A stretch of 64,000 bases of DNA. It comes from Streptomyces tailanensis (GTDB lineage Bacteria; Actinomycetota; Actinomycetes; Streptomycetales; Streptomycetaceae). Location of the stretch: NCBI RefSeq assembly GCF_008386495.1, contig NZ_VTHJ01000029.1:1-64000 (forward strand), read 5' to 3'. The notes beneath the pieces are model-generated. The model was not told where the DNA came from and searched no databases. It saw only the letters and a program-made list of their open reading frames with translations. This document shows positions 31,328-45,126 of this stretch, piece after piece; positions within the stretch are counted from its first letter, which is position 1; each line of letters starts with the position of its first letter. Position numbers and translations under genes: made by a program.

Positions 31328-31695
31328 ATGAGAACCAGCCTTCCGCGTCCGCCGGTGCGGGTGTTCACCGGTACCCATGGGGTCAGGGTGGTCGGCGACC
31401 CGCATCTGCGGATCGCCGACGCCCCGCTTCCGCCGGCCGAGGTCTTCGGCGTCGTACGGGACACACTCGCCGTCCAGGACGCCGCCGCCCAGTCGGGAAG
31501 CCGCGCCGCCCGCCTGCCCGCTTCGGCGACGGCACCAGGAAGCAGGTGCTGGACCTGCTCCTGGGTCTCGACGACCGGAACGCCGAGGACGCGAAACTGC
31601 TCAAGCTCTTCGGCGCCAAGTCCTTCGTAGGCACGAAGAATTCCGCCTACGACCGGATCGAGGACGTGGCCCGCGACCTGGGGCCGCTGCGGTGA
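31328..31695 (+). pseudogene. Fragment of a phosphonate/phosphite-type ABC substrate-binding protein
   Basis: The first part reads in one frame (MRTSLPRPPVRVFTGTHGVR...) and the last 60 or so codons in another. The latter (TRKQVLDLLLGLDDRN, then KLFGAKSFVGTKNSAYDRIE) matches the C-terminal pattern of PhnD/PtxB binding proteins. The stop overlaps the ATPase start (GTGA, 31692-31695), the normal operon layout. There is no signal peptide and most of the binding protein is missing, so the gene is non-functional. The origin of the first 55 codons is unclear. Confidence 0.6.
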
Positions 31696-32345
31696 GTGAG
31701 GCTCCGCCGGTGATCCGGCTGCGCGGCGCGGGGTGCCGGTTCGGTGCGCACGAGGCCCTGGGTGAGCTGGACCTCACGGTCCATGCCGGGGAGCGGGTGG
31801 CGGTGCTCGGCACCAGCGGCGCCGGCAAGAGCACGCTCCTGGCTCTGGTCAACGGGTCGTTGGAGCCGACCACGGGCAGTGTGGAGGCCTTCGGTGAGAA
31901 CTCCGCCCACCTGACGGCCCCACGGCGGCGGCTGGTGCAGCGGCGCATCGGCTCGGTGAGCCAGGACCTCGCCCTGATCGAGCAGGTCCGGGTGGTGCAC
32001 AACGTCAACGCGGGCCGGCTCGGCCGGTGGAGCACCACCCGCGCGCTGGCCTCGCTGATCTGGCCCCACTCGCTCGACGTGGTCCGCGACGCGCTCGAAC
32101 GGGTCGACCTGGGCTGGGGCGAGCCCGTATCCAGTCTCGATCCGGTGCGCGCCGCGCGGGTTCTCGGCCTGCTCGGCGCCTCACCGACCGGGAGAACGCT
32201 CGTGGTGAGTCTGCACCAGCCGGCATTGGCCCGCGAGCACTGCACCCGCGTGGTGGGCCTGCGCCAGGGCCGGATCGTCCTCGACCTCCCGGCCGGCGAC
32301 GCGACCGACGAAGCCCTGTCATACGACCTCTACGAGCTCGTATGA
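31692..32345 (+). pseudogene. PhnC/PtxA-type ABC ATPase lacking signature motif and Walker B
   Basis: The 217-residue frame is open end to end, about 35-50 residues shorter than PhnC. Walker A (GTSGAGKST, about residue 40), Q-loop (SVSQDLALI), D-loop (EPVSSLDP) and H-loop (VVSLHQPAL) are all present. Between ALERVDLGW and GEPVSSLDP the expected LSGGQ signature and the Asp of Walker B are absent: an in-frame internal deletion near nucleotide 32120. Such a protein should not hydrolyse ATP. Start overlaps the binding-protein remnant; stop overlaps the permease start (32342). Confidence 0.75.
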
Positions 32346-33706
32346 CACTCCAACTCGACGCCCCGCCATCCCCGCCGTCCCCGCCGGCCGTGTCCGCGCC
32401 GGGACGAAAGCCCGTGAGCGGGCGGCGGATTCTGCTCCGCAGGCTCACAGCACTGGTGACGGTGACCGGGCTGCTGGCCTGGGCGTTTGCTCGCGCCGTC
32501 CCGTCGGGCGGCGAGCTGGTCAACCGAGGCGGTCTGGCCCTGCTCGACGACCTCGCGGCGACCGCGCTGCACCCCGCCCTGGACCCGGGCTTCCTCGCCG
32601 TGGTCCTGGAAGCGACGGCGACGACGCTGGCCCTGGCGCTGCTCGGGACGGCCGGGGCACTGGTGATCGGCCTGGTCGGCGGGCTGGTCCTCAGCGACGC
32701 GGCGTGGAGCGGCGCGCTGCCGTGGCCCCTAGGTGCGGGGCGGCTTGTGCTGCGTGGCGCGCTGGTGGCCGTCCGCTCGGTGCACGAGCTGGTGTGGGCG
32801 CTGCTCTTCGTCAGCGTGCTCGGCCTCGACCCGCTCGTCGCCGCCCTGGCACTCGCCCTGCCCTTCGGCGCGCAGAGCGCCCAGGTCTTCGGGGAGACCT
32901 TCGACAGCGTGCCCGACGCGCCGCTGCGTGCGCTGCGCGCCGCCGGCGCCAAGCGTTGCTCCGCTCTGGCCTACGCCCTTCTTCCCGGCACGGCACCGCT
33001 GCTGCTGTCCTACTCCTTCCACCGGTTCGAGTGCGCCCTGCGGTCCGCGGTCGTGCTCGGCGTCGCCGGCGTCGGAGGGCTGGGATTCGAGCTCACGGTG
33101 AGCCTGCAGTCGCGTAACTGGGGGGAGGTCTGGACGCTGGTCGCGGCACTGCTGGCCCTCGCGGGGGCGGTCGAGCTGTGGAGCAACCGCGTCCGCTCCG
33201 ACGTCGCGGTGGTGACCTGCGCCGACTGGTCGGTCGGACATGAACGCTCACGCGACGACGGCCGGTCACCGCGTGGCCTGTCCCGCCCGACCCGCTGGTC
33301 TCTGATCCTGGCTGTACCGGCGATCGCGGTCGCCTGGTGGTGGGCCGGCCTCTCACTCGCCGGACTCGCCTCGACCCGCACCCAGGACCTCACCGGCCGA
33401 CTGCTCGGCGACCTGTGGCCTCCCGCACTCCCCGAAGGCGGTCTGCGGGTACTGACCGGCGCCGCCCTCGACACCGTGACCATGGCCGTCCTCGCCATGG
33501 CCGTGGCGGTCGTGATCACCCTGCTCGTGGGCCCCTGGGCCGGCCGCCCGCGCGCCGACCGGCGCGGCCCGGCATCCTGGGGCCGACGCCGTGTCCGTGT
33601 CCGACCTCACCGACAGCCGCGCGGCAACCGACACCCTGCTAAGGACGCCGAGAGACGGCCGCTGGAGACCGTATGTCGTGGCGCGTTTCCTGGGTCTGGC
33701 CGCTGA
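32342..33706 (+). CDS. PhnE/PtxC-type permease, second domain truncated
   Basis: The first permease unit (about residues 20-300) is complete-looking, with LVAVRSVHELVWALLFVSVLG, the EAA-like loop DAPLRALRAAGAKRCSALAY and RSAVVLGVAGVGGLGFEL. A second unit begins after RPTRWSLILAVPAIAVAWWW, as in fused PhnE proteins, but after AVAVVITLLVGPWAGRP it runs into Arg/Pro-rich sequence that overlaps the next gene. A deletion appears to have fused the second unit to the upstream side of the phosphatidyltransferase. With a dead ATPase and no binding protein the importer is presumably non-functional. Confidence 0.65.
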   Translation: MTLQLDAPPSPPSPPAVSAPGRKPVSGRRILLRRLTALVTVTGLLAWAFARAVPSGGELVNRGGLALLDDLAATALHPALDPGFLAVVLEATATTLALALLGTAGALVIGLVGGLVLSDAAWSGALPWPLGAGRLVLRGALVAVRSVHELVWALLFVSVLGLDPLVAALALALPFGAQSAQVFGETFDSVPDAPLRALRAAGAKRCSALAYALLPGTAPLLLSYSFHRFECALRSAVVLGVAGVGGLGFELTVSLQSRNWGEVWTLVAALLALAGAVELWSNRVRSDVAVVTCADWSVGHERSRDDGRSPRGLSRPTRWSLILAVPAIAVAWWWAGLSLAGLASTRTQDLTGRLLGDLWPPALPEGGLRVLTGAALDTVTMAVLAMAVAVVITLLVGPWAGRPRADRRGPASWGRRRVRVRPHRQPRGNRHPAKDAERRPLETVCRGAFPGSGR

Positions 33707-34240
33707 TAGGTCGGTGCGGCAGGCGGCCCGCCGCCCCCGGGCGCTGACCCAGCTCACCGTCCTGCACGGCCTGTTGTTCGTCCTCGCCCGCGATCGCGAA
33801 CCGGGACGGGGCTGGGTGGCGGCCAACTGGCTGCTCGCGCAGCCCTGCATCTGGGCCTGTTGGAGCGCCGCGACCGGCTCGCACCGGCCGATGCGCTCAC
33901 CCTGATCCGTGGCAGTCTCCCCGCCACGGCCCTGGGGTCCTGCCGCTGGTCGGGGGTGGCGGCGGTCGGCCTGGACCTGGCCGACGGCCGCCTGGCCCGC
34001 CGCCAGGAGACCGTGTCCCCGTTCGGCGACTACGCCGACTCCCTCGCCGATGCCGCGTTCGGGACCTGGCTGGTGCTGCGGCACGGGCCGAGCCGCACGC
34101 TGCGGGTTACCGCGATCGCCGCGTGGGCGGTACCGGTCGTCACGGTCACCGCCGTCGCCATCTGTCGCGGCACCATGCCCGAACCCGGCCCAGTGCACGG
34201 ACGCCCACATCTGCCGCATCCTGGTCGGGACGAACAGTGA
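33591..34240 (+). pseudogene. CDP-alcohol phosphatidyltransferase, frameshifted
   Basis: Frame one (GTG 33591) gives about 85 residues with a helical N-terminus (LTQLTVLHGLLFVLARDREP). The family then continues in another frame from about 33820: LHLGLLERRDRLAPADALTL, then the catalytic motif DLADGRLARRQETVSPFG followed by DYADSLAD, i.e. D-x2-DG-x2-AR-x8-G-x3-D-x3-D. This motif binds Mg2+ and the CDP-alcohol. The single register change near 33800-33840 breaks the gene unless it is a sequencing error. The product would have been a membrane enzyme joining a polar head group or alcohol to a lipid. No ribosome site is visible at its start. Confidence 0.65.
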
Positions 34241-34324
34241 GCGCCATTACTGAGCCGCGCCTCCGCCCGGGCATAGCGTTCCGTACATGAGGAACCTCCA
34301 CCGCGCATGACGAGGAGCACGGTA

Positions 34325-34627
34325 ATGCTGCGCGCAGTATGGAACGGCACCGTGATCGCGGAAGCCCCCCGCACCGTGATCGTCGAGGGCAACCACTACT
34401 TCCCGCCCGGAACACTGCATCGCGAGTACTTCACCGAGACCCGCGGCCGGTCGCTGTGTCTCTGGAAGGGGCTCGCCCGCTACTACACCGTCACCGTCGA
34501 CGGGCGGACCAACCGGAACGCGGCCTGGTACTACCCGCACCCGAGCCCGCTCGCCCGCAGGATCAAGAACCACGTCGCCTTCTGGCAGGGCGTGACGGTC
34601 GAGGGCGAGCCGGGGGGCACGTCGTGA
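34325..34627 (+). CDS. DUF427-family protein
   Basis: This 100-residue small beta-barrel protein of the DUF427 type reads RAVWNGTVIAEAPRTVIVEG...YFPPGTLHREYFTET...WKGLARYYTVTVDG...AAWYYPHPSPLA. The conserved Trp/Lys/Tyr pattern is complete, so it is intact. ATG 34325 has GAGGAG about 8 bases upstream, whereas ATG 34307 has none. The stop overlaps the next gene's GTG start (GTGA, 34624-34627), indicating translational coupling. The family function is unknown. Confidence 0.85.
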   Translation: MLRAVWNGTVIAEAPRTVIVEGNHYFPPGTLHREYFTETRGRSLCLWKGLARYYTVTVDGRTNRNAAWYYPHPSPLARRIKNHVAFWQGVTVEGEPGGTS

Positions 34628-35196
34628 GCGGCCGCCGGAGGGTCCGGACGGCAGCATGGACGGCGACCGCGGCGGCCATGGCCGTCGGCGGATACGCCGG
34701 GCTGGTCAGCGGGGCACTTCCGGTCGACCTGGGCGTGGGCCGACGGGTCAGACCGCTCGGGCCGCAGACCCTGGACATCGCGGCGCCCCGGGACGTGGTC
34801 TTCGACGTGATCGCCCAGCCGTACCTGGGGCGCGCCACCCGGGCCATGCGGGAGAAGGTGCGCGTTCTGGAGCGCGGCAGTGACATGGCACTGGCCGCTC
34901 ACTTCACGCCGCTCGGCGGACGGTGGAAGGCCGTCACGGTAGAGACCGTACGGTTCAGCCGCCCCGAGCGCGTCGACTTCCGCCTCGTGCGCGGTCCGGT
35001 CCCCTACGTCGTGGAGTCGTTCACCCTGACCGAACTGCCCACCGGCACCCGCCTGTTGTACGAAGGGGAGCTGGGCACCGACCTGTGGCGGGCCGGAGCC
35101 TGGTGGGGTGAGAAGGTCGCCGCCCGCTGGGAGGCGACCGTCGCCGGATCGCTCGCCGCGGTCAAGGAGGAGGCGGAGCGCAGGGCCCGGCGATGA
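34624..35196 (+). CDS. SRPBCC (START-like) domain protein with N-terminal anchor
   Basis: This 190-residue protein has an N-terminal hydrophobic segment (AAWTATAAAMAVGGYAGLVSG) and then a START/polyketide-cyclase-like fold beginning TLDIAAPRDVVFDVIAQPYLG, with beta strands AVTVETVRFSRPERVDF and VVESFTLTELPTGTRLLYEG and a long C-terminal helix. Such folds bind lipids or hydrophobic small molecules; no catalytic residues are evident. GTG 34624 overlaps the DUF427 stop. It converges with the TetR gene 14 bases later. Confidence 0.8.
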   Translation: MSGRRRVRTAAWTATAAAMAVGGYAGLVSGALPVDLGVGRRVRPLGPQTLDIAAPRDVVFDVIAQPYLGRATRAMREKVRVLERGSDMALAAHFTPLGGRWKAVTVETVRFSRPERVDFRLVRGPVPYVVESFTLTELPTGTRLLYEGELGTDLWRAGAWWGEKVAARWEATVAGSLAAVKEEAERRARR

Positions 35197-35922: not shown

Positions 35923-36570
35923 ATGACCCTCAACGCCGAACTGCGCGCCTTCTACGAAGCCCGCCAGCAGCAGATCCCCGCCGAGATCCGGGAGATCATG
36001 CGCCGGGCGGGCCAGGCACTGGCCGACTCCGGCCAGGCCGACCGCACCCTGACCGCCGGCGCGCGGGCCCCCCGCTTCACCCTCCCCTCGGCGACCGGGC
36101 AGGCCGTGTCCCTGGACGACCTGCTCGCCGACGGCCCGATCGTGCTGACCTTCTACCGCGGTGCCTGGTGCCCGTACTGCAACATCGCCCTGCACGCCCT
36201 CCAGCAGCACCACGACGCCATCACCGCACGCGGCGCCCAACTGGTGGCCGTCTCCCCGCAGATCCCCGACGAATCCCTCTCTCTCACCGAGAAGCACCAG
36301 CTCGCCTTCGACGTCCTCAGCGACATCGGCTCCGACACCGCCAAGCAGTACGGCCTCGCCTTCGACCTCCCCGACGACCTCGCCGCCGTCTACGACAAAC
36401 TCGGCTTCGACCTCCAGCGCGTCAACGCCGGCCACCCGCGCACCCTCCCACTGCCCGCCACCTACGTCATCGACCGCGCCGGCACCATCCGCTGGGCCTT
36501 CGCCGACACCGACTACACCCGCCGCGCTGAACCGGCCGACATCCTCGCCACCCTCGACTCCCTGGACTGA
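35923..36570 (+). CDS. Peroxiredoxin-like (AhpC/TSA) protein
   Basis: This 215-residue thioredoxin-fold protein has the active-site segment VLTFYRGAWCPYCNIALHAL, a CPYC pair near residues 85-88 rather than the single peroxidatic Cys of classical AhpC. It belongs to the YRGxWCPYC group of peroxiredoxin-like proteins. It should reduce peroxides or quinones using the Cys pair. The helical N-terminus (MTLNAELRAFYEARQQQIPA) is typical of the group. ATG 35923 lies after AGGAGGACC. Control by the divergent TetR is likely. Confidence 0.88.
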   Translation: MTLNAELRAFYEARQQQIPAEIREIMRRAGQALADSGQADRTLTAGARAPRFTLPSATGQAVSLDDLLADGPIVLTFYRGAWCPYCNIALHALQQHHDAITARGAQLVAVSPQIPDESLSLTEKHQLAFDVLSDIGSDTAKQYGLAFDLPDDLAAVYDKLGFDLQRVNAGHPRTLPLPATYVIDRAGTIRWAFADTDYTRRAEPADILATLDSLD

Positions 36571-37033
36571 CCCACCAGGGCGTCGGTCAACAGCACGAGC
36601 GTGAGCGGATAGAACACCGGCCGCATCGGAATCGACGCCGGCAGCAGCACGGCGGCGGTGCCGAGCACGAGCCGGACGGCCGGTGCGCAGCAGACGAGGC
36701 CGGGCAGGAACACCGGGAACACCCCGAGCAGGCGTGTGTATCCCCTCCGGCGACGCGTCGCCCGGCAGGCCGCCGCATGCCGGGTCGCGAGCCCGGCGAC
36801 CGCGACGTTGCAGCCGCCCCGGGCGCGACGATTCCTCCGAGCAGCAAGTTGAGCAGGCTGACGAACACCGCCAGGTGCGCCGAGGATGCGCCGCGACCAC
36901 CGGCTCGAACAGGTGCGGCGCCCGGACCTGCAACACGCGCTCCCGGGCCGTCTGGAACACCGGGCCGCCGGTGAACCGGCCCGGAGGCCGAGACCGCGAG
37001 GTCACCGATGGAGAAGAGATACGCCACCAGCAC
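36513..37033 (-). pseudogene. Membrane protein gene broken by several frameshifts
   Basis: Pieces of one protein can be read in three registers in order: MLVAYLFSIGDLAVSASGP (from 37033), then GGPVFQTARERVLQVRAPHL and FEPVVAAHPR, then LAVFVSLLNLLLGGIVAPG, then VFPVFLPGLVCCAPAVRLVL and IPMRPVFYPLTLVLLTDALV near 36590. Together they look like a four-helix membrane protein with a Cys pair (VCC) after a PGL turn. At least three register changes are needed, so this is decay rather than one sequencing error. The original family was not recognised. It lies opposite the mauE-like gene. Confidence 0.6.
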
Positions 37034-37134: not shown

Positions 37135-37596
37135 ATGGTGCTGCGGATCGTACTGGGCGCGCTGTTCGTCGCGATGGCGGCCGGGCAGCTTGTCTCGTTC
37201 CGGTGGATGCCCGGCATTCTGGCCGCGTACGGGCTGGCCTCCGGGGCGGGCGCGACCGCACTGGCCGTGGCAGTGATCGCAGGCGAACTGCTGTGCGGGG
37301 TGTGGTTCCTGGCCCGCCCTCGATCCCGCGCGAGGGCGCCGGTATGGGTGTTCACCGGCGTCGCCCTGGCGTGGGCGCTGCTGGCGGCACAGGCGTACGC
37401 GCGCGGGCTCACCGTGGCCAACTGCGGCTGCTTCGGCCGCTACCTGCCCCAGCGGCTGAGCTGGTTCGTGCTCGTCCAGGACGCCCTCTTGCTGCTCTAC
37501 GCCGGTCTGCTGCTGCGCGGCAGCGCGGCCACGCCTCCCGGCACGGGTGGAGCCCGCAAGCGGGGCGGGCTGCGTAACGAGGAGGCGGACGCGTGA
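37135..37596 (+). CDS. MauE/DoxX-family redox-associated membrane protein
   Basis: This 153-residue protein has four hydrophobic segments (IVLGALFVAMAAGQLVSF, ALAVAVIAGELLCGVWFLA, VFTGVALAWALLAAQAYA, LVQDALLLLYAGLLL) and the family motif VANCGCFGRYLPQRLSW. The CGC pair at the membrane surface is thought to pass reducing equivalents for disulfide formation, as MauE does with MauD/TlpA-type thioredoxins. A TlpA-like gene and a CcdA fragment lie 4-5 kb downstream, and a radical SAM gene follows after 346 bases. Start ATG 37135. Confidence 0.8.
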   Translation: MVLRIVLGALFVAMAAGQLVSFRWMPGILAAYGLASGAGATALAVAVIAGELLCGVWFLARPRSRARAPVWVFTGVALAWALLAAQAYARGLTVANCGCFGRYLPQRLSWFVLVQDALLLLYAGLLLRGSAATPPGTGGARKRGGLRNEEADA

Positions 37597-37942
37597 TGAC
37601 GTGTGATGACCGGACGGCGTGAACGTCCCGGTGTGCGCGGGACACTCGGGCCACTGGGCGCCGAGCTGGTGATGGTGCTGCGCCGGCCCGTCGTTCGTTG
37701 CCGGCGGAGCACTCGGCGCGGTCGGCGGAGCACCACGCAACCCATGGCTGATCGCCGTCCGCCTACGCCCTGCACTGCCGCGCCCGTCACCGACGCGGCG
37801 CCGGCCCCGAGGACTGCTGCTCGTCCGCACCGCTCCCCTCCAGCGCCGGCGAGCACAAGAGCGCGGGCTCGGGGAGCGCCCCACGGCGCAGGGGCGTCCA
37901 AGCCGAACAGCCGATCCCGTCACGACGGAGTGAGGAGTACCG
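37597..37942. other. Gap before the radical SAM gene
   Basis: No gene was recognised. It presumably contains the radical SAM promoter; GAGGAG at about 37931-37936 is its ribosome site. Confidence 0.4.
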
Positions 37943-39511
37943 ATGCCCCAGGCATCCGCGCCACGGCGCAAGGCGGACCGCGACGAGGTGTTCGTGGAGT
38001 TCACCAAGTCGATCTGCCCCCTGTGCAAGACGCCCGTCGACGCCCAGGTCAACATCCGTGACAACAAGGTGTATCTGCGTAAACGCTGCCGCGAGCACGG
38101 CGAATTCGAGGCCCTCGTCTACGGGGACGCCGAGGAGTACCTGTCCTCGGCCCGCTTCAACAAGCCCGGCACCATCCCGCTGGTCTTCCAGACCGAGGTG
38201 AAGGACGGCTGCCCCAGCGACTGCGGGCTGTGCCCCGAGCACAAGCAACACGCCTGCCTGGGCATCATCGAGGTCAACACCGGCTGCAACCTGGACTGCC
38301 CGATCTGCTTCGCCGACTCCGGCCACCACAGCGACGGTTACTCGATCACCCACGAGCAGTGCGAGCGGATGCTCGACGCGTTCGTGGAGTCCGAGGGCGA
38401 GGCGGAGGTGGTGATGTTCTCCGGCGGTGAGCCCACCATCCACAAACACATCCTCGAGTTCATCGACCTCGCCCAGACCCGCCCGATCAAGAACGTCCAC
38501 CTCAACACCAACGGCATCCGCCTCGCCACCGACAAGAACTTCGTCGCCGAGCTCGGCAAACGCAACCAGGTCCCCGGCAAGTCCGTGAACATCTACCTCC
38601 AGTTCGACGGCCTCGACGAGCGCACCCACCTGGAGATCCGCAGGCGGGACCTGCGCACGTTCAAGCAGCGGGCGCTGGACAACTGCGCCGAGGCCGGGCT
38701 GACCGTCACCCTCGTAGCGGCCGTCGAACGCGGCCTGAACGAGCACGAGATCGGCGCGATCATCGAGTACGGCATCGACCATCCGGCCGTCCGGTCTGTG
38801 GCCTTCCAGCCGGTCACCCACTCCGGACGGCATGTCGAATTCGACCCGCTGAACCGGCTCACCAACCCCGACGTCATCAAGCTCATCAACGCCCAGCGCC
38901 CGCAGTGGTTCCAGAAGGGCGACTTCTTCCCCGTGCCCTGCTGCTTTCCCACCTGCCGCTCCATCACCTACCTCCTCGTGGACGGCGAACCCGGCAACCG
39001 CACCGTCGTGCCCATCCCGCGCCTGCTGAACGTGGAGGACCACCTCGACTACGTCACCAACCGGGTCATGCCCGACGCCGGCATCCGCGAGGCCCTGGAG
39101 AAACTCTGGTCAGCTTCCGCGTTCATGGGCACCGCCACCACCGAGGAGCAGCTCCGCGCCACCGCGGAGGCCCTGGACTGCGCGGACGCCTGCGGCATCG
39201 ACCTGCCCCAGGCGGTGAAGGAACTCAACGACAAGGCTTTCATGATCGTGGTGCAGGACTTCCAGGACCCCTACACCCTCAACGTCAAGCAGCTGATGAA
39301 GTGCTGCGTCGAGGAGATCACCCCGGACGGGCGGCTGATCCCGTTCTGCGCCTACAACTCGGTCGGCTACCGGGAGCAGGTCCGGGCCCAGATGTCGGGG
39401 GTACCGGTCGCGGATGTGGTGCCGAACGCGCTGCCGCTGGCGGACCGGCTCACCCCGACACCGTACGGCTCGAAAACCGTCCGTACCGAGGCGGAGGGAG
39501 AGCGGTCATGA
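37943..39511 (+). CDS. MJ0619/Tes-type multi-cluster radical SAM enzyme
   Basis: This is a 522-residue enzyme. Cys25/Cys28 (CPLC) with Cys49 and a following His look like a rubredoxin-type Fe site. Cys90, 94, 97 and 105 (GCPSDCGLCPEHKQHAC) suit an extra cluster. Cys115-x3-Cys119-x2-Cys122 (TGCNLDCPICFADSG) is the SAM-binding 4Fe-4S motif, followed by the FSGGEPT motif. Late Cys (PVPCCFPTCRS and KCCVEEITPDGRLIPFCAYN) would hold further Fe-S clusters. This layout matches the MJ0619 family, which includes archaeal tetraether lipid synthase Tes and was earlier reported as a pterin methyltransferase. The chemistry here is unknown: C-C coupling or methylation at unactivated carbon is possible. ATG 37943 has GAGGAG; the stop overlaps the methyltransferase start. 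Confidence 0.85.
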   Translation: MPQASAPRRKADRDEVFVEFTKSICPLCKTPVDAQVNIRDNKVYLRKRCREHGEFEALVYGDAEEYLSSARFNKPGTIPLVFQTEVKDGCPSDCGLCPEHKQHACLGIIEVNTGCNLDCPICFADSGHHSDGYSITHEQCERMLDAFVESEGEAEVVMFSGGEPTIHKHILEFIDLAQTRPIKNVHLNTNGIRLATDKNFVAELGKRNQVPGKSVNIYLQFDGLDERTHLEIRRRDLRTFKQRALDNCAEAGLTVTLVAAVERGLNEHEIGAIIEYGIDHPAVRSVAFQPVTHSGRHVEFDPLNRLTNPDVIKLINAQRPQWFQKGDFFPVPCCFPTCRSITYLLVDGEPGNRTVVPIPRLLNVEDHLDYVTNRVMPDAGIREALEKLWSASAFMGTATTEEQLRATAEALDCADACGIDLPQAVKELNDKAFMIVVQDFQDPYTLNVKQLMKCCVEEITPDGRLIPFCAYNSVGYREQVRAQMSGVPVADVVPNALPLADRLTPTPYGSKTVRTEAEGERS

Positions 39512-40296
39512 ACAGCGACGAGGTCAAAGCATGCTGTGCGGACGCCTACGCGAAGGATGTCGTCGCCCTGCTGCTCGGCGGCTCCTACCACCCCGGCGGC
39601 ACCGCCCTGACCCGACGCCTCGCCGACCGCCTTCAGCTGACCGCAGGCGGCCGGGTCCTGGATGTGGCCTCGGGTCGGGGCACCACGGCACTCCTGCTCG
39701 CCGACGCCTACGGGGTACGAGTGGACGGTGTGGACTACTCGGCCGCCAATACAGCGCTCGCCCAAGGCGCGGCCCAGGCGGCGGGGTTGGTGGAGCGGAC
39801 CGTGTTCACCACGGGCGACGCGGAACACCTGCCCTACCCGGACGAGGTGTTCGACGCGGTGGTGTGCGAGTGCGCCCTGTGCACCTTCCCCGACAAGGTC
39901 CAGGCCGCAGCCGAGTTCGCCCGTGTCCTGCGCCCGGGCGGCCGGGTCGGCATCACCGACGTGACCGCCGTCCCCGACCGGCTGCCGCCCGGGCTGGCCG
40001 GTCTCGGTGCCCGCATCGCCTGCGTCGCCGACGCCCGCCCGCTGGCCGAGTACGGCGACATCCTGGCCGTTGCAGGACTGCGCACCCTGGCCACCGAGCG
40101 CCACGACGCGGCGCTGCTCCGCATGATCGACCAGATCGAGGCGCGGCTGAACCTGCTGCGCATCACCGCCCCCGGCCGCCTCGCCGACGCCGGTGTGGAC
40201 ATGGCCGCCGCCCCGGCCGTGCTCGCCGCGGCCCGCGCCGCCGTCGCGGACGGCACGCTCGGCTACGCCCTGCTGACCGCCGTGAAGTCCACCTGA
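39508..40296 (+). CDS. SAM-dependent methyltransferase coupled to the radical SAM gene
   Basis: This 262-residue class I methyltransferase has motif I GGRVLDVASGRGTTALLLAD (about residues 45-64), an acidic motif (VDGVDYSAANTALAQ) and the post-I region TTGDAEHLPYPDEVFDAVVC. The N-terminus MNSDEVKACCADAYAKDVVA carries a Cys pair, somewhat like arsenite/UbiE-type enzymes. Start overlaps the radical SAM stop (ATGA, 39508-39511), so the two proteins are made together and probably act on the same molecule. The substrate is unknown. No arsenic-resistance genes are near, so arsenite methylation is unlikely. Confidence 0.82.
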   Translation: MNSDEVKACCADAYAKDVVALLLGGSYHPGGTALTRRLADRLQLTAGGRVLDVASGRGTTALLLADAYGVRVDGVDYSAANTALAQGAAQAAGLVERTVFTTGDAEHLPYPDEVFDAVVCECALCTFPDKVQAAAEFARVLRPGGRVGITDVTAVPDRLPPGLAGLGARIACVADARPLAEYGDILAVAGLRTLATERHDAALLRMIDQIEARLNLLRITAPGRLADAGVDMAAAPAVLAAARAAVADGTLGYALLTAVKST

Positions 40297-40408
40297 CGGC
40301 CGTACCGCTACCGCCGGGTACGTAAGCGCCCTCACATACCTGTACCTGCCCCGCGTCCTAGCGTCAGCGACAAGAGCGATGAGTCACTGCACCAGGAGGG
40401 CGATCATC

Positions 40409-40894
40409 ATGACTACGACCCTGCGCGTTTCCCCGAGCACGGCCGTCATTCCGGTGCACGCGGTGTGGGGCGCCGCGGCCGGTCTGGTCGGCGGTGTCGG
40501 GATGGGCATCTGGATGTCGGTGTCGAGGCCCATGACGGACACCGCGATGATCACCATGGTCGCAGGTCTCCTCGGCTCCACCAACGCCTTCGCCGGATGG
40601 CTGATCCACCTGTCCATCGCGCTCTTCGCCGGCATCACCTTCGGCGCGCTGCTGGGGCAGTTCGCCCAGCGCCTCGCGTCCGCCGTGGTCCTCGGCCTGG
40701 CCTACGGCGCGGTGTGGTGGACCGTCGGCGCGCTGTGGATCATGCCCGCCAACCTGGGCATGCCGGTCTTCGAATGGAACGACGTCACCTCCTCCAGTCT
40801 CGGCGCCCACCTTGTCTTCGGTCTCCTGGCCGGACTCACCTTCTCCCTCGTCGCCCGGACGGCGGGCAAGCAGACCGGCCGGACTACCGGATGA
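40409..40894 (+). CDS. Hypothetical four-helix membrane protein
   Basis: This 161-residue protein starts at ATG 40409, with AGGAGG 12-17 bases upstream (40392-40397). The hydrophobic segments are HAVWGAAAGLVGGVGMGIWM, ITMVAGLLGSTNAFAGWLI, ALFAGITFGALLG, VVLGLAYGAVWWTVGALWI and LGAHLVFGLLAGLTFSLV. No cysteines or catalytic residues. Similar proteins occur singly in actinobacteria with no known role. It lies between the methyltransferase and a Crp/Fnr gene on the same strand. Confidence 0.7.
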   Translation: MTTTLRVSPSTAVIPVHAVWGAAAGLVGGVGMGIWMSVSRPMTDTAMITMVAGLLGSTNAFAGWLIHLSIALFAGITFGALLGQFAQRLASAVVLGLAYGAVWWTVGALWIMPANLGMPVFEWNDVTSSSLGAHLVFGLLAGLTFSLVARTAGKQTGRTTG

Positions 40895-41070
40895 CACCGG
40901 TACCACCAGAGTCAACGCCTGGTTCCGGCGCACCGCCGGGGGGTACCGAGCCTCTCCTGGGCGCCCTGGACGACTACTGTCTGGCCAGCAGCGCTGGCGC
41001 GCTGGCCGGCCCGGCGTGGGGCGCCGCACCCCCGCCCTGGGCACCGGGACGACGCGAGGAACCACACCAC

Positions 41071-41772
41071 ATGAAGCACACCGGCGACGAGGCCGAGAAG
41101 ACCTGGTGCATCTCCGAGGTCGACATCTTCCGCGACCTGAGCGACGCGGAAATGGACGCCATCGCCACCGCGGCCCCGATGAAGACCTACAGCGCCGGAG
41201 AACTGCTCTACTCGCCCTCCCAGCCCTCCGAGGTGCTGTTCATCCTCAAGCAGGGCCGGGTGCGTATCTTCCGGGTCTCGGCCGACGGCCGCGCCCTGAC
41301 CTGCGCGATCATCAGCCCCGGCACCATCTTCGGCGAGATGGTGCTGCTCGGGCAGCGTATGTACGACAACTTCGCCGAAGCCCTCGACGACGTCACCGTC
41401 TGCGTGATGAGCCGCGCCGACGTCCACCGCTTCCTGCTGTCCGACGCCCGGATCTCCGCCCGCATCACCGAGATCCTCGGCCGCCGCCTGACCGACCTCG
41501 AACAGCGCCTGTCCGACAGCGTCTTCAAGTCCGTCCCGCAGCGGATCGCCACCACCCTGCTGACCCTCGCGGCCGAGACCCGCCCCAGGGTGCTCGGGAC
41601 CCACAGCCCGCAGATCGCTCTCACCCACCAGCAGATCGCCGCCCTGGCCGGCACCTCCCGCGAAACGTGCACCAAGGTGCTGCGCGACTTCGCCGACCAG
41701 CACCTGATCCGCCTCGCTCGGGGCCGCATCACCGTCCTCGCCCCGGAGCGGCTCGCCGACCACGCGGGCTGA
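41071..41772 (+). CDS. Crp/Fnr-family transcriptional regulator
   Basis: This 233-residue protein has a cyclic-nucleotide-like sensor domain (FRDLSDAEMDAIATAAPMKTY, then VLFILKQGRVRIFRVSADGR, then PGTIFGEMVLLGQ) followed by a dimer helix and a C-terminal winged helix with LTHQQIAALAGTSRETCTKVL (about residues 180-200). The Arg-Ser pair of cAMP-binding Crp is replaced (GEMVLLGQRMYDNF), so the ligand may differ, and no Fnr-type N-terminal Cys cluster is seen. ATG 41071 has GAGGA about 12 bases upstream. An alternative ATG at 40891 adds a low-complexity segment. Likely regulator of the radical SAM/redox cluster. Confidence 0.86.
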   Translation: MKHTGDEAEKTWCISEVDIFRDLSDAEMDAIATAAPMKTYSAGELLYSPSQPSEVLFILKQGRVRIFRVSADGRALTCAIISPGTIFGEMVLLGQRMYDNFAEALDDVTVCVMSRADVHRFLLSDARISARITEILGRRLTDLEQRLSDSVFKSVPQRIATTLLTLAAETRPRVLGTHSPQIALTHQQIAALAGTSRETCTKVLRDFADQHLIRLARGRITVLAPERLADHAG

Positions 41773-41864
41773 CGTCACCGGACCGTAAGCACCCACCCCA
41801 GCCCGTACCGCTCGCCGCCCGGCCTACAGTTCAGCCGACCCCGACCACCAGGAGCCGTCCCGTC

Positions 41865-42436
41865 ATGCGTGCCCGCCTGATCCTTCCCGGCCTGCTGGCC
41901 GCCACCGCGCTCACCCTCGTCGGCTGCGGCGCGGAGAAGTCCGCCTCCTCCAGCGGTACCGCAGAAGAGACCAGCCCCACGGCCTCCGGCTCCTCCTCGC
42001 CGGCGCAGGCAAGGGCCAGCACCGGGGCGGTCCCCGAGACGCTGCGGTTCACCGGCACGACCGTGGACGGTAAGCCGTTCGACGCGGCCATGCTGGCGGG
42101 CAAGCCCACCGTGTTGTGGTTCTGGGCGCCGTGGTGTCCCACCTGCAAGGCCCAGGGCCCCGAAACCGCCAAGGTCGCCGACCGGTTCCAGGGCCAGGCG
42201 CACGTGATCGGGGTGGCCGGACTCGACAAGACCAAGGCCATGAAGGACTTTGTCGCCGACACCGGGGTCGGCGCCTTCCCGAACCTGTCCGACGAGCCGG
42301 GGATATCTGGAAGAAGTTCGAGATCACCCAGCAGAGCGTCTACGTGATCCTCGACAAGGACGGCAAGACGGTCTTCACCGGCAGCCTCCCGGCCGGCAAG
42401 GGCCTCGCCGACAAGCTCAGCCCGCTCGTCGGCTGA
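41865..42436 (+). pseudogene. TlpA-like thioredoxin lipoprotein, single-base frameshift
   Basis: From ATG 41865 the frame encodes a signal with lipobox (ALTLVGCGAEK), a Ser/Thr-rich linker and a thioredoxin fold with active site VLWFWAPWCPTCKAQGP. After FPNLSDEPG at about 42302 the frame goes wrong, while the remainder (DIWKKFEITQQSVYVILDKD, then GKTVFTGSLPAGKGLADKL) continues in another register to 42436. One extra G in the run at 42299-42302 would restore a complete protein of about 190 residues. It is therefore either a recent frameshift or a homopolymer sequencing error. An intact protein would reduce or oxidise extracytoplasmic thiols with MauE/CcdA. Confidence 0.75.
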
Positions 42437-42442
42437 GCCGCC

Positions 42443-42580
42443 ATGTCCGATCTGCCGCTGGCCCTCGCTCTGACCGCGGGCATGCTCGCCGCCGTCAACC
42501 CCAGGGTGGTCGACGCGATACTGCGTCACCTGGGGCAGCACTTCGGCAACCCGTCCAGCAGCCATCCCTATAGCGATCAG
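42443..42580 (+). pseudogene. Chimera of CcdA and NifS-type cysteine desulfurase fragments
   Basis: The first 19 codons (MSDLPLALALTAGMLAAVNP) match the N-terminus of CcdA-type thiol transporters, which continue CGF after NP. Here the frame instead passes into RVVDAILRHLGQHFGNPSSS HPYS, the N-terminal pattern of class V cysteine desulfurases. The join falls at the shared Pro codon (about 42502). The matching part ends again at about 42573. This is the footprint of at least two deletions or misjoins. The open frame runs to 42997 but is meaningless beyond this point. Confidence 0.6.
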
Positions 42581-42729
42581 CCCGCCACGCGCTCGGACAA
42601 GCACGCGCGCAGGTCGAGGCCGGCCTCTTCGCCCTTCAGGGCGAAGAGCAAGTCAATTCTGCGAGCTTCCCTCGGGCTCTTCGGCAGCATGTCGAGCGCC
42701 GTGACGCAGTGTTGTAGCAGGTCAGGCAT
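42577..42729 (-). CDS. Small ORF of unknown function (50 aa), possibly a fragment
   Basis: MPDLLQHCVTALDMLPKSPR, then EARRIDLLFALKGEEAGLDL and a final RACLSERVAG. The composition is protein-like and helical, unlike shadow frames. The ribosome site is weak. Its stop lies where the cysteine-desulfurase similarity ends, so it is probably the C-terminal piece of a larger lost gene. A strong terminator follows on its upstream side. Confidence 0.35.
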   Translation of the reverse strand: MPDLLQHCVTALDMLPKSPREARRIDLLFALKGEEAGLDLRACLSERVAG

Positions 42730-42801: not shown

Positions 42802-44322
42802 TCAGTGGCCTGCGGTGAGCTGGCCGGCGAGGCGTTCGTGCATGTCCGCGCTGGGCTCGTTCAGGCCGATGATGGTGACCTTCTTGCCGCGCTGCTTGTA
42901 CTTGGTCTCGATGGCGTCCAGGGCGGCCACTGACGAGGCGTCCCAGATGTGGGCGTCGGTGAGGTCTATGACGACGTCGTCCGGGTCGTCCTTGTAGTTG
43001 AACTGGTAGACGAGGTCGTTGGACGAGGCGAAGAACAGCTCGCCGGTAACGGCGTAGACGACCTGGTTGCCGTCGGGGTCGACGACGCCGGAGACGTTGG
43101 CGAGGTGGGCGACGCGCTTGGCGAAGATCACCATGGCGGTGATGGAGCCGAGGACGACACCGATGGCGAGGTTGTGGGTGGCGACCACGGCGGCGACGGT
43201 GACGACCATGACGGTGGTCTCGCCCAGCGGCATCCGCTTCAGCGTCTTGGGCTGGATGGAGTGCCAGTCGAAGGTGGCGACCGACACCAGGATCATGACG
43301 GCGACCAGGGCGGCCATCGGAATGTCGGAGACGACAGGGCCGAAGGCGATGCACAGGACCATCAGGAAGGACCCGGCCAGGAAGGTCGACAGGCGGGTGC
43401 GGGCGCCGGACGTCTTCACGTTGATCATCGTCTGGCCGATCATGGCGCAGCCGCCCATGCCGCCGAAGAAGCCGGTGACGATGTTGGCGATGCCCTGGCC
43501 GATGGACTCACGGGTCTTGTTGGAGTGGGTGTCGGTGATGTCGTCTACCAGCTTGGCCGTCATCAGCGACTCCATCAGCCCGACCAGCGCGAAGGCGAAC
43601 GCGTACGGGGCGATGATGGTCAGCGTGTCCAGCGTGAACGGCACGTCGGGCAAGCCCGGGACCGGGAGCGAGGAGGGCAGGTCGCCCTTGTCGCCGACGT
43701 TGGGGACGGCGATGCCCGCGGCGACGGTGATGACCGTGAGGATGACGATGGAGACCAGGGGGGCCGGGACGGTCTTGGTGATCTTCGGGAAGAGCACCAT
43801 GAGCGCGAGGCCGCCGGCGATCAGCGGGTAGACGGCCCACGGGACGTCGTGCATCTCGGGCACCTGGGCCATGAAGATGAGGATGGCGAGGGCGTTGACG
43901 AAGCCCACCATCACCGAGCGCGGCACGAATCGCATCAGCTTGGCGACGCCCAGCGCACCGAGAACGATCTGGATGAGCCCGCCGAGGATGACGGCGGCGA
44001 TCAGGTAACCCAGGCCATAGTCGTGGTTGAGCGGCGCGATGACCAGCGCCATCGCGCCGGTCGCGGCGGAGATCATGGCCGTGCGGCCACCGACGAACGA
44101 GATCACCACAGCCATGGTGAACGACGCGAACAGGCCGATCGCCGGGTCGACCCCGGCGATGATCGAGAAGGAGATGGCCTCAGGGATCAGTGCCAGCGCC
44201 ACCACCAGACCGGCCAGCACCTCGGTGCGGAAGACCTTCGGGGAATCGAGCCAGTCGGGCTTGACTGTGCCCTTTGAAAAACGGGCGCGCAGCTTGGGGC
44301 CTGCGGACAGCAGTGAAGACAT
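42802..44322 (-). CDS. SulP-family transporter with STAS domain, divergent from MerR
   Basis: This 506-residue protein has about 10-12 helices, early EVLAGLVVALALIPEAISFS and AAGAMALV-like segments, the GGMGGCAMIGQTMINVKTSG region and a C-terminal STAS domain (DVVIDLTDAHIWDASSVAAL, about residue 455). It belongs to the SulP group that includes BicA-like bicarbonate transporters as well as sulfate permeases; the substrate is not provable here. ATG 44322 is preferred over the longer frame. MerR1 lies on the other side of a 396-base gap that contains one of the shared 26-bp dyads, so this transporter is the probable MerR1 target. Confidence 0.9.
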   Translation of the reverse strand: MSSLLSAGPKLRARFSKGTVKPDWLDSPKVFRTEVLAGLVVALALIPEAISFSIIAGVDPAIGLFASFTMAVVISFVGGRTAMISAATGAMALVIAPLNHDYGLGYLIAAVILGGLIQIVLGALGVAKLMRFVPRSVMVGFVNALAILIFMAQVPEMHDVPWAVYPLIAGGLALMVLFPKITKTVPAPLVSIVILTVITVAAGIAVPNVGDKGDLPSSLPVPGLPDVPFTLDTLTIIAPYAFAFALVGLMESLMTAKLVDDITDTHSNKTRESIGQGIANIVTGFFGGMGGCAMIGQTMINVKTSGARTRLSTFLAGSFLMVLCIAFGPVVSDIPMAALVAVMILVSVATFDWHSIQPKTLKRMPLGETTVMVVTVAAVVATHNLAIGVVLGSITAMVIFAKRVAHLANVSGVVDPDGNQVVYAVTGELFFASSNDLVYQFNYKDDPDDVVIDLTDAHIWDASSVAALDAIETKYKQRGKKVTIIGLNEPSADMHERLAGQLTAGH

Positions 44323-44578
44323 GCAACCGTTTCTGTTCGGGCGCGCACATCCACCTGCTGGATGTGCGCGCGTCGTACTCGACTCCACGCAAGGGGCGGA
44401 AGTCCCCGGCGGCCCGGCCTCGACGGGGGCCCTGCCGGATGGAGTGGCAGCCTTCGCGGCTGCCGGTCGGGCATCATTGCCCGGAAGTCTGCGGGTGCCG
44501 GCGGGGCCCGGTCGGGGCCCGCGCTCTGCCGGGGCCGCCCTGGCTGCGCCTTTACAGCGTGGCTGCCCTCGCAAAAAG

Positions 44579-44604
44579 ACTCTACCCTGACGTGAGGTGA
44601 GAGT
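44579..44604. promoter_or_regulatory. MerR-type dyad between sulP and merR1
   Basis: A 26-base site: ACTCTACCCTGAC against GTGAGGTGAGAGT, 10 of 13 positions symmetric about AC/GT. It matches the sites at 47046, 49319, 46070 and 50573. The gap (44323-44718) otherwise holds no gene. Confidence 0.65.
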
Positions 44605-44718
44605 GCGACCTGTGGCTTGTGAAATGCAGGTGAACACGGCCTCGGATCATGTGATTCCAGACACGTATGCTGGAGCACTTCGAACGTTCGAACGCGGCGG
44701 GACGCAGAAGGAGAAGGC

Positions 44719-45126
44719 GTGACGATGACTGAGCGGCAGATGCAGATCGGCGAGGTGGCCGAGCGGACCGGTTTGTCGCTGCGCACGATCCGCCACTACG
44801 AGGAAGTCGGCCTCGTCATCCCGTCCGCCCGCAGCAAGGGCGGCTTCCGTCTCTACACCGAGGCCGACGTCGAGCGCCTGATGGTCATCCGCCGCATGAA
44901 GCCGCTGGACTTCTCGCTGGAGGAGATGCGGGACCTGCTGGAGATCACCGACCGCATCGCCGACACCGACAAGCCGCCCGCCGGCGAGGAGATGGAGCGG
45001 CTGCGCGAGCGCCTCGACTCCTACCGGAAGGTGGCCGACGCCCGCTGCGAAACGCTGCGCGCCCAACTGATGGCCGCCGAGGACTTCGCCACCACGCTCC
45101 GCCGCAGGCTCGGCACAGGGAACTGA
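44719..45126 (+). CDS. MerR-family regulator 1
   Basis: This 135-residue protein has a winged helix at the start (QIGEVAERTGLSLRTIRHYE, EVGLVIPSARSKGGFRLYTE), a long dimerisation helix and a C-terminal segment with a single Cys (DARCETLRAQLMAAEDFATT). The short C-terminus with one Cys suggests sensing of a metal, thiol stress or another small cue. GTG 44719 has AGAAGGAG 5 bases upstream; ATG 44725 is also possible. It is closely related to MerR2 at 48835-49263, and dyads of the same shape lie beside both genes. It probably controls the divergent SulP gene. Confidence 0.88.
   Translation: MTMTERQMQIGEVAERTGLSLRTIRHYEEVGLVIPSARSKGGFRLYTEADVERLMVIRRMKPLDFSLEEMRDLLEITDRIADTDKPPAGEEMERLRERLDSYRKVADARCETLRAQLMAAEDFATTLRRRLGTGN

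Follow-up and report, generated by a model that had tools for sequence, protein, structure and literature searches.

Which bond does a radical S-adenosylmethionine (SAM) enzyme of the tetraether synthase (Tes, MJ0619) type form in an actinomycete, where its gene overlaps that of a methyltransferase? This question is raised by a stretch of 64,000 nucleotides from the 10-Mb genome of Streptomyces tailanensis (contig NZ_VTHJ01000029.1, positions 1 to 64,000; hereafter the window), for which an original prediction had described a redox gene cluster around such an enzyme and had put forward unusual lipid or cofactor chemistry. As a possible answer, which we hold tentatively, the two enzymes would constitute a radical SAM-methyltransferase module making a methylated organo-metalloid, with arsenic as the likeliest element, by a division of labour akin to that of ArsS+ArsM or ArsL+ArsM. 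The points counted for this reading are the alignment of C122 and C172 of the methyltransferase with ArsM, an ArsC-type gene next to the pair in Halorarius, the conservation of the pair and its redox neighbours. The pair comprises:

37943–39511, + strand: radical SAM enzyme with the Tes/GDGT-MAS fold, 522 residues (Pfam, NCBIfam, PDB profile, AlphaFold2 model)
39508–40296, + strand: class I SAM methyltransferase, DVU_1556/ArsM-like, 262 residues, with Cys9/10/122/125/172 (Pfam, NCBIfam)

An ArsM-like methyltransferase and a Tes-fold radical SAM enzyme

Both genes are present as originally described, the start of the methyltransferase gene overlapping the stop of the radical SAM open reading frame by 4 bases (ATGA). 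Alignment of the methyltransferase with two arsenite methyltransferases, one of which stems from an arsR-arsC-arsM-acr3 operon, revealed that it carries conserved catalytic cysteines of ArsM: C122 and C172, which are invariant, coincide with cysteines of both enzymes, and C9/C10 align with the N-terminal CC of the enzyme that is not the ars-operon one. The cysteines of the methyltransferase are conserved in 70–79 of 80 actinomycete members. ArsM enzymes require four conserved cysteines (PMC8552651), and Cys72, Cys174 and Cys224 have been named for CmArsM (PMC7248198); we infer that the two invariant cysteines would be the exact equivalents of C174/C224 of CmArsM. The thiol pattern of the partner points to a soft atom (arsenic, sulfur or selenium) as its putative substrate. 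Among the NCBIfam models, the best match was DVU_1556 (NF045667; 131.7 bits, below the cut-off of 155), followed in second rank by arsenite methyltransferase; C122 and C172 are present too in the above-cut-off DVU_1556 member of a locus with a TrsS-like radical SAM protein (L161).

The radical SAM protein contains Radical_SAM and HMPTM zinc ribbon domains (Pfam), and its assignment to the MJ0619/Tes type was borne out by sequence and by fold. PDB entry 7TOL (GDGT-MAS) was the best sequence match (residues 20–485, 1.4e-81), all others being far weaker, and a fold search with an AlphaFold2 model (predicted local distance difference test, pLDDT, 80.7; predicted template modelling score, pTM, 0.85) returned a full-length match to 7TOM/7TOL (E 2.8e-41, template modelling (TM) scores 0.75/0.78), with SkfB as second-best fold at a TM score of 0.35. 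All ligands of the four metal sites listed for Tes (PMC9433317) are kept, namely the rubredoxin site (C25/C28/C49/H52), the N-terminal [4Fe-4S] cluster (C90/C94/C97 and a His), the radical SAM (RS) cluster (C115/C119/C122, CX3CX2C) and the C-terminal [4Fe-4S] cluster (M452/C454/C455/C469), and a Tyr following the last Cys (Y471) is likewise shared. Across the 80 relatives, these ligands, Met452 among them, are conserved almost without exception. The cysteines listed in the original prediction (Cys25/28/49, 90/94/97/105, 115/119/122) are correct, and its late groups correspond to C333/C334/C338, C413/C417 and C454/C455/C469.

However, the protein is only about 32% identical to GDGT-MAS/Tes, scores 331 bits against a cut-off of 450 with the NCBIfam Tes model (NF045702), and differs by a fixed methyltransferase partner, an actinomycete host and extra cysteines. 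Beyond the metal ligands it possesses C105, C333/C334/C338 and C413/C417; Tes lacks counterparts of C105, C333/C334 and C413/C417 and has a Cys counterpart of C338. C333, C334, C338 and C417 are kept in both the actinobacterial and the haloarchaeal methyltransferase-paired clades, and of these four the TrsS-like protein of L161 keeps only C333 and C338. TrsS (NF045646; 336.9 bits, cut-off 490) and Tes are the nearest NCBIfam models, ArsS not being among the 25 best matches, and the TrsS cut-off was exceeded in 0 of 296 Actinomycetota genomes. The two window proteins share with TrsS and DVU_1556 the top family matches and, in L161, the adjacency of radical SAM and methyltransferase genes, but both fall below the cut-offs, the gene order in L161 is reversed, and its neighbours differ. 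Moreover, the window radical SAM gene contains no selenocysteine codon (no in-frame TGA), with Cys at every key position. Assignment to Tes, TrsS, DVU_1556 or ArsM was rejected, as each NCBIfam cut-off was missed.

In the trees, which held one Tes sequence only and long branches, the radical SAM protein falls inside an actinobacterial clade with 100/100 support, every sampled member of which has the methyltransferase partner. Judging from the ratios of nonsynonymous to synonymous substitution rates (dN/dS) against five relatives (0.11–0.19 for the radical SAM gene, 0.20–0.30 for the methyltransferase gene), both enzymes are under purifying selection. A second, partial radical SAM copy occurs in the same genome (G000:C120:35534-36154; L002, L172), is 85% identical over residues 69–275, and borders on a stretch of N and a MauE-like segment.

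Spread of the pair and its recurrent neighbours

A GTDB genome scan yielded 80 named actinomycete loci, from Streptomyces, Amycolatopsis, Pseudonocardia, Kribbella, Micromonospora, Salinispora and other genera. The pairing singled out in the original prediction is conserved far beyond chance: both genes are present in 79–80 of 81 loci, with the identical 4-base overlap in about 60 of them. Since a near full-length radical SAM relative was found in 23 of the 395 genomes sampled from the host's own family, the pair is an accessory trait. It also occurs on a Mycolicibacterium plasmid (L143), in other actinobacterial classes and at five haloarchaeal plasmid loci, a further haloarchaeal locus having a broken radical SAM gene. 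Around the pair, the window contains:

33833–34207, + strand: stretch similar to CDP-alcohol phosphatidyltransferase (63% to L035)
34307–34627, + strand: DUF427 protein
34678–35196, + strand: SRPBCC/polyketide-cyclase-like protein
about 36552–37033, − strand: broken remnant of a CC-motif membrane protein (fam14), which elsewhere pairs with DUF3179
37135–37596, + strand: MauE-like membrane protein with NCGCFG, 153 residues (Pfam PF07291, 4.5e-13)
40409–40894, + strand (open reading frame listed from 40379): small multi-pass membrane protein (memb4), kept with the pair in other actinobacteria
41071–41772, + strand: Crp/Fnr-family regulator, adjoining memb4 in many loci
41865–42436, + strand: frameshifted TlpA-like lipoprotein gene (5' part 41865–42347, 3' frame to 42436)
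42443–42502, + strand: what is left of ccdA (its first 20 codons), fused to a NifS-like fragment (about 42502–42613)

The MauE-like gene, the small membrane protein, the Crp/Fnr regulator and the upstream phosphatidyltransferase of the original prediction were all recovered. Its thiol-relay cluster holds as a redox neighbourhood with a confirmed MauE gene, whereas the other relay genes appear decayed in the window: tlpA shifts frame at a GGGG run near 42300, and ccdA is a 20-codon stub. By contrast, S. spinoverrucosus NBRC 14228 (L034) is an example of a Streptomyces in which the locus is undecayed. The fam14 gene lies upstream of the pair in other loci as well, and its DUF3179 neighbour is gone from the window.

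To gauge recurrence, 48 Streptomyces and 33 other loci were compared with 60 random 17.5-kb windows drawn from ten genomes of the host's family, a background not matched for the non-Streptomyces loci. Among the Streptomyces loci, MauE was present in 37/48, the SRPBCC homologue in 39/48, memb4 in 26/48, the Crp/Fnr regulator in 28/48, TlpA in 15/48 and CcdA in 14/48, all against 0/60 random windows. Equally absent from the random windows were DUF427 (25/48 Streptomyces and 11/33 other loci), DUF3179 (11/48 and five other loci) and a flavin disulfide reductase (8/48 and 16/33, thus 24/81); the CDP-alcohol phosphatidyltransferase was found in 20/48 Streptomyces loci and 26/81 of all loci. As the loci are related by descent, p values for these neighbours are overstated, and the recurrence of neighbours across domains is the stronger point. 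DUF3179 together with a fam14-like CC-motif membrane protein stands beside the haloarchaeal pair (L159, L240; hidden Markov model E 1e-20 to 1e-21), so that this combination recurs near the module in both domains of life, and dihydrolipoyl-dehydrogenase-like flavin reductases, redoxin, DUF547 and DsrE proteins also accompany the haloarchaeal pair.

In Halorarius, an ArsC-type reductase gene with the same orientation as the pair is found 87 bases upstream of it; the product of this gene has a P-loop C-x5-R and the motif MGC...DW.LDDP, and is 49% identical to the ArsC of the arsR-arsC-arsM-acr3 operon. The surrounding island of the Halorarius halobius plasmid (L241, 228–262 kb) holds the pair, three DUF3179 proteins, two redox flavoproteins, thioredoxin, redoxin, DsrE, TauE/SafE, DUF547 and the ArsC-type reductase.

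Candidate reactions of the pair

A radical SAM enzyme working with ArsM is an established arrangement for organoarsenicals such as arsenosugar and arsinothricin (PMC8552651), and Tes traps its substrate radical on a C-terminal cluster sulfur (PMC9433317). On the strength of these two precedents, the pair may be viewed as a radical former of carbon-heteroatom bonds with a methyltransferase acting on a soft element. In such a scheme the thiol-disulfide relay and flavin reductase would keep the element reduced, and the ArsM-like methyltransferase would hold it via its conserved cysteines and then methylate it. The Tes-type enzyme would generate a carbon radical with 5'-deoxyadenosyl and retain it near the C-terminal [4Fe-4S] cluster, where it would be bonded to the soft atom and not to a second carbon.

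Several results weigh against arsenic. The methyltransferase scores 84.7 bits with the ArsM model (NF008823), missing its cut-off of 263; Cys9/10 are absent from the haloarchaeal partners; and PDB profiles rank RebM/MitM-type O-methyltransferases above ArsM, so that the substrate is not readable from family membership. ArsC and ACR3 occur at only 4/81 and 2/81 loci, not significant against 0/60 random windows, and DsrE, TauE and rhodanese neighbours would fit carbon-sulfur chemistry equally. While the ArsS+ArsM and ArsL+ArsM systems likewise join a radical SAM enzyme to an ArsM-type methyltransferase with cysteines conserved at the ArsM positions, the window radical enzyme, with its Tes fold and several clusters, is of a different family, and most loci are without an ars operon. 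As the small number of ars genes around the actinobacterial loci falls short of significance, our confidence in the arsenic reading stays limited. Selenium is disfavoured in the host, since no gene of its own genome passes the SelD cut-off (best score 83.7, cut-off 125 bits); selenoprotein members are described for both TrsS and DUF3179 (PMC13188914, PMC9312934).

The nearest rival is methylthiolation by the two proteins, since DsrE, TauE and rhodanese neighbours recur too. Here, sulfur of the C-terminal [4Fe-4S] cluster would be inserted into a C–H bond in the manner of MiaB, RimO or lipoyl synthase, the methyltransferase would cap the resulting thiol, and the sulfur-transfer and thiol-relay neighbours would replenish sulfur and reducing power. 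The Tes intermediate, with the substrate carbon on a cluster sulfur (PMC9433317), the conservation of C454/C455/C469 and M452, the DsrE, TauE/SafE and rhodanese neighbours and the NifS-like fragment of the window all fit. On the other hand, a thiol methyltransferase has no need of an ArsM-type cysteine set, this radical SAM family is not known to have a sacrificial cluster, and the NifS fragment resembles a recombination scar present in the window only, so that we regard this route as rather unlikely. Distinctly unlikely is a role in cofactor or pterin maturation, of the kind implied for the TrsS/DVU_1556 gene sets of anaerobes, in which a CoA-ligase-type gene is found too. TrsS and DVU_1556 are indeed the top NCBIfam matches of the two proteins, and L161 groups methyltransferase, radical SAM gene and a next gene resembling a CoA ligase by eye; yet the recurrent neighbours of the actinomycete or haloarchaeal pair include no gene for a molybdenum hydroxylase, a CoA ligase or pterin, the family cut-offs are missed, and the pterin role of MJ0619 itself was not reproduced (PMC9433317).

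Lipid-tail chemistry, in which the enzyme would join or modify hydrophobic chains and the methyltransferase would methylate the lipid product, draws on the full-length Tes fold with every metal ligand kept and on the proposal that bacterial Tes homologues make branched glycerol dialkyl glycerol tetraethers (brGDGTs) and are thus makers of membrane-spanning lipids (PMC8941075). If so, such relatives would serve as markers in lipid geochemistry. Lipid hints in the neighbourhood are limited to the lipid-binding-like SRPBCC gene (39/48 Streptomyces loci) and the CDP-alcohol phosphatidyltransferase (20/48). By contrast, the Tes cut-off is missed, C333/C334 and C417 are foreign to Tes, the thiol pattern suits a soft atom, and genes for ether lipids or tail joining are not among the recurrent neighbours at the surveyed loci. 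The lipid coupling envisaged by the original prediction thus found no support, and we consider lipid chemistry unlikely for the pair; with the clade locked to an ArsM-like methyltransferase and thiol-relay genes in bacteria and archaea alike, a lipid role is not to be assumed. A separate MJ0619-type clade of mycobacteria and relatives (L145 5992–7530, L169–L171) belongs to the same radical SAM family but lacks the N-terminal auxiliary cluster, CC-x3-C and a methyltransferase. In the M. avium plasmid (L145) its gene adjoins an Lgt-like prolipoprotein diacylglyceryl transferase gene, with similar-looking upstream genes in L169 and L171. Being distinct and unpaired in the tree, this clade was rejected as support for lipid chemistry by the pair, and is itself a better candidate for such chemistry.

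Returning to the organo-metalloid reading, a more specific version, quite unlikely in our estimate, has the Tes-fold enzyme couple a carbon radical to a methylated metalloid supplied by the ArsM-like partner, the radical perhaps residing on the end carbon of a hydrophobic chain. Arsenolipids carry a dimethylarsinoyl group on a chain end. We found no paper naming enzymes of arsenolipid biosynthesis; if the version held, arsenolipid-type organoarsenicals would have a bacterial and haloarchaeal route. More generally, formation of a carbon-metalloid or carbon-sulfur bond by the pair would be a new reaction for a radical SAM fold of solved structure, and would open an uncharacterised gene module, shared across domains, to direct tests of function. 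Two related, distinct families, TrsS and DVU_1556, already have names in NCBIfam, the reference cited for TrsS reportedly being a 2025 paper on selenoprotein neighbourhoods. As we found no paper on the actinomycete/haloarchaeal clade itself, the pair represents a variant of a known uncharacterised kind.

Further genes near the pair

Loci beyond the main Streptomyces group encode, besides the pair, a second small DVU_1556-like methyltransferase (L176 6940–7695, L177 7584–8333; homologues in L078, L083, L086, L088, L090, L091, L107 and L112) and sometimes a mycoredoxin. In a deep actinobacterial lineage (L120/L166), CcdA-like, TlpA-like, anti-sigma-like and SRPBCC genes flank the pair, and in a Streptomycetaceae genome an acyltransferase resembling acyl-homoserine-lactone synthase lies a few genes upstream of it (L174 4885–5454).

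Downstream in the window (42802–45126), a SulP-type sulfate permease and a MerR regulator are encoded, which stand near the pair again in several Streptomyces loci; with recurrence almost only in Streptomyces (MerR 14/48, SulP 8/48), they were rejected as core genes. Upstream (31377–33706), a phosphonate-type ABC transporter comprises PhnC and PhnE behind a 5'-truncated PhnD-like end, and was likewise rejected as part of the module, as only 2–3 loci have it. In one of the surveyed loci (L063), an 80% identical PhnE is grouped with Rv1678/Rv1680/Rv1681-like genes, and on the Mycolicibacterium plasmid an Rv1678–Rv1681-like set stands beside the pair.

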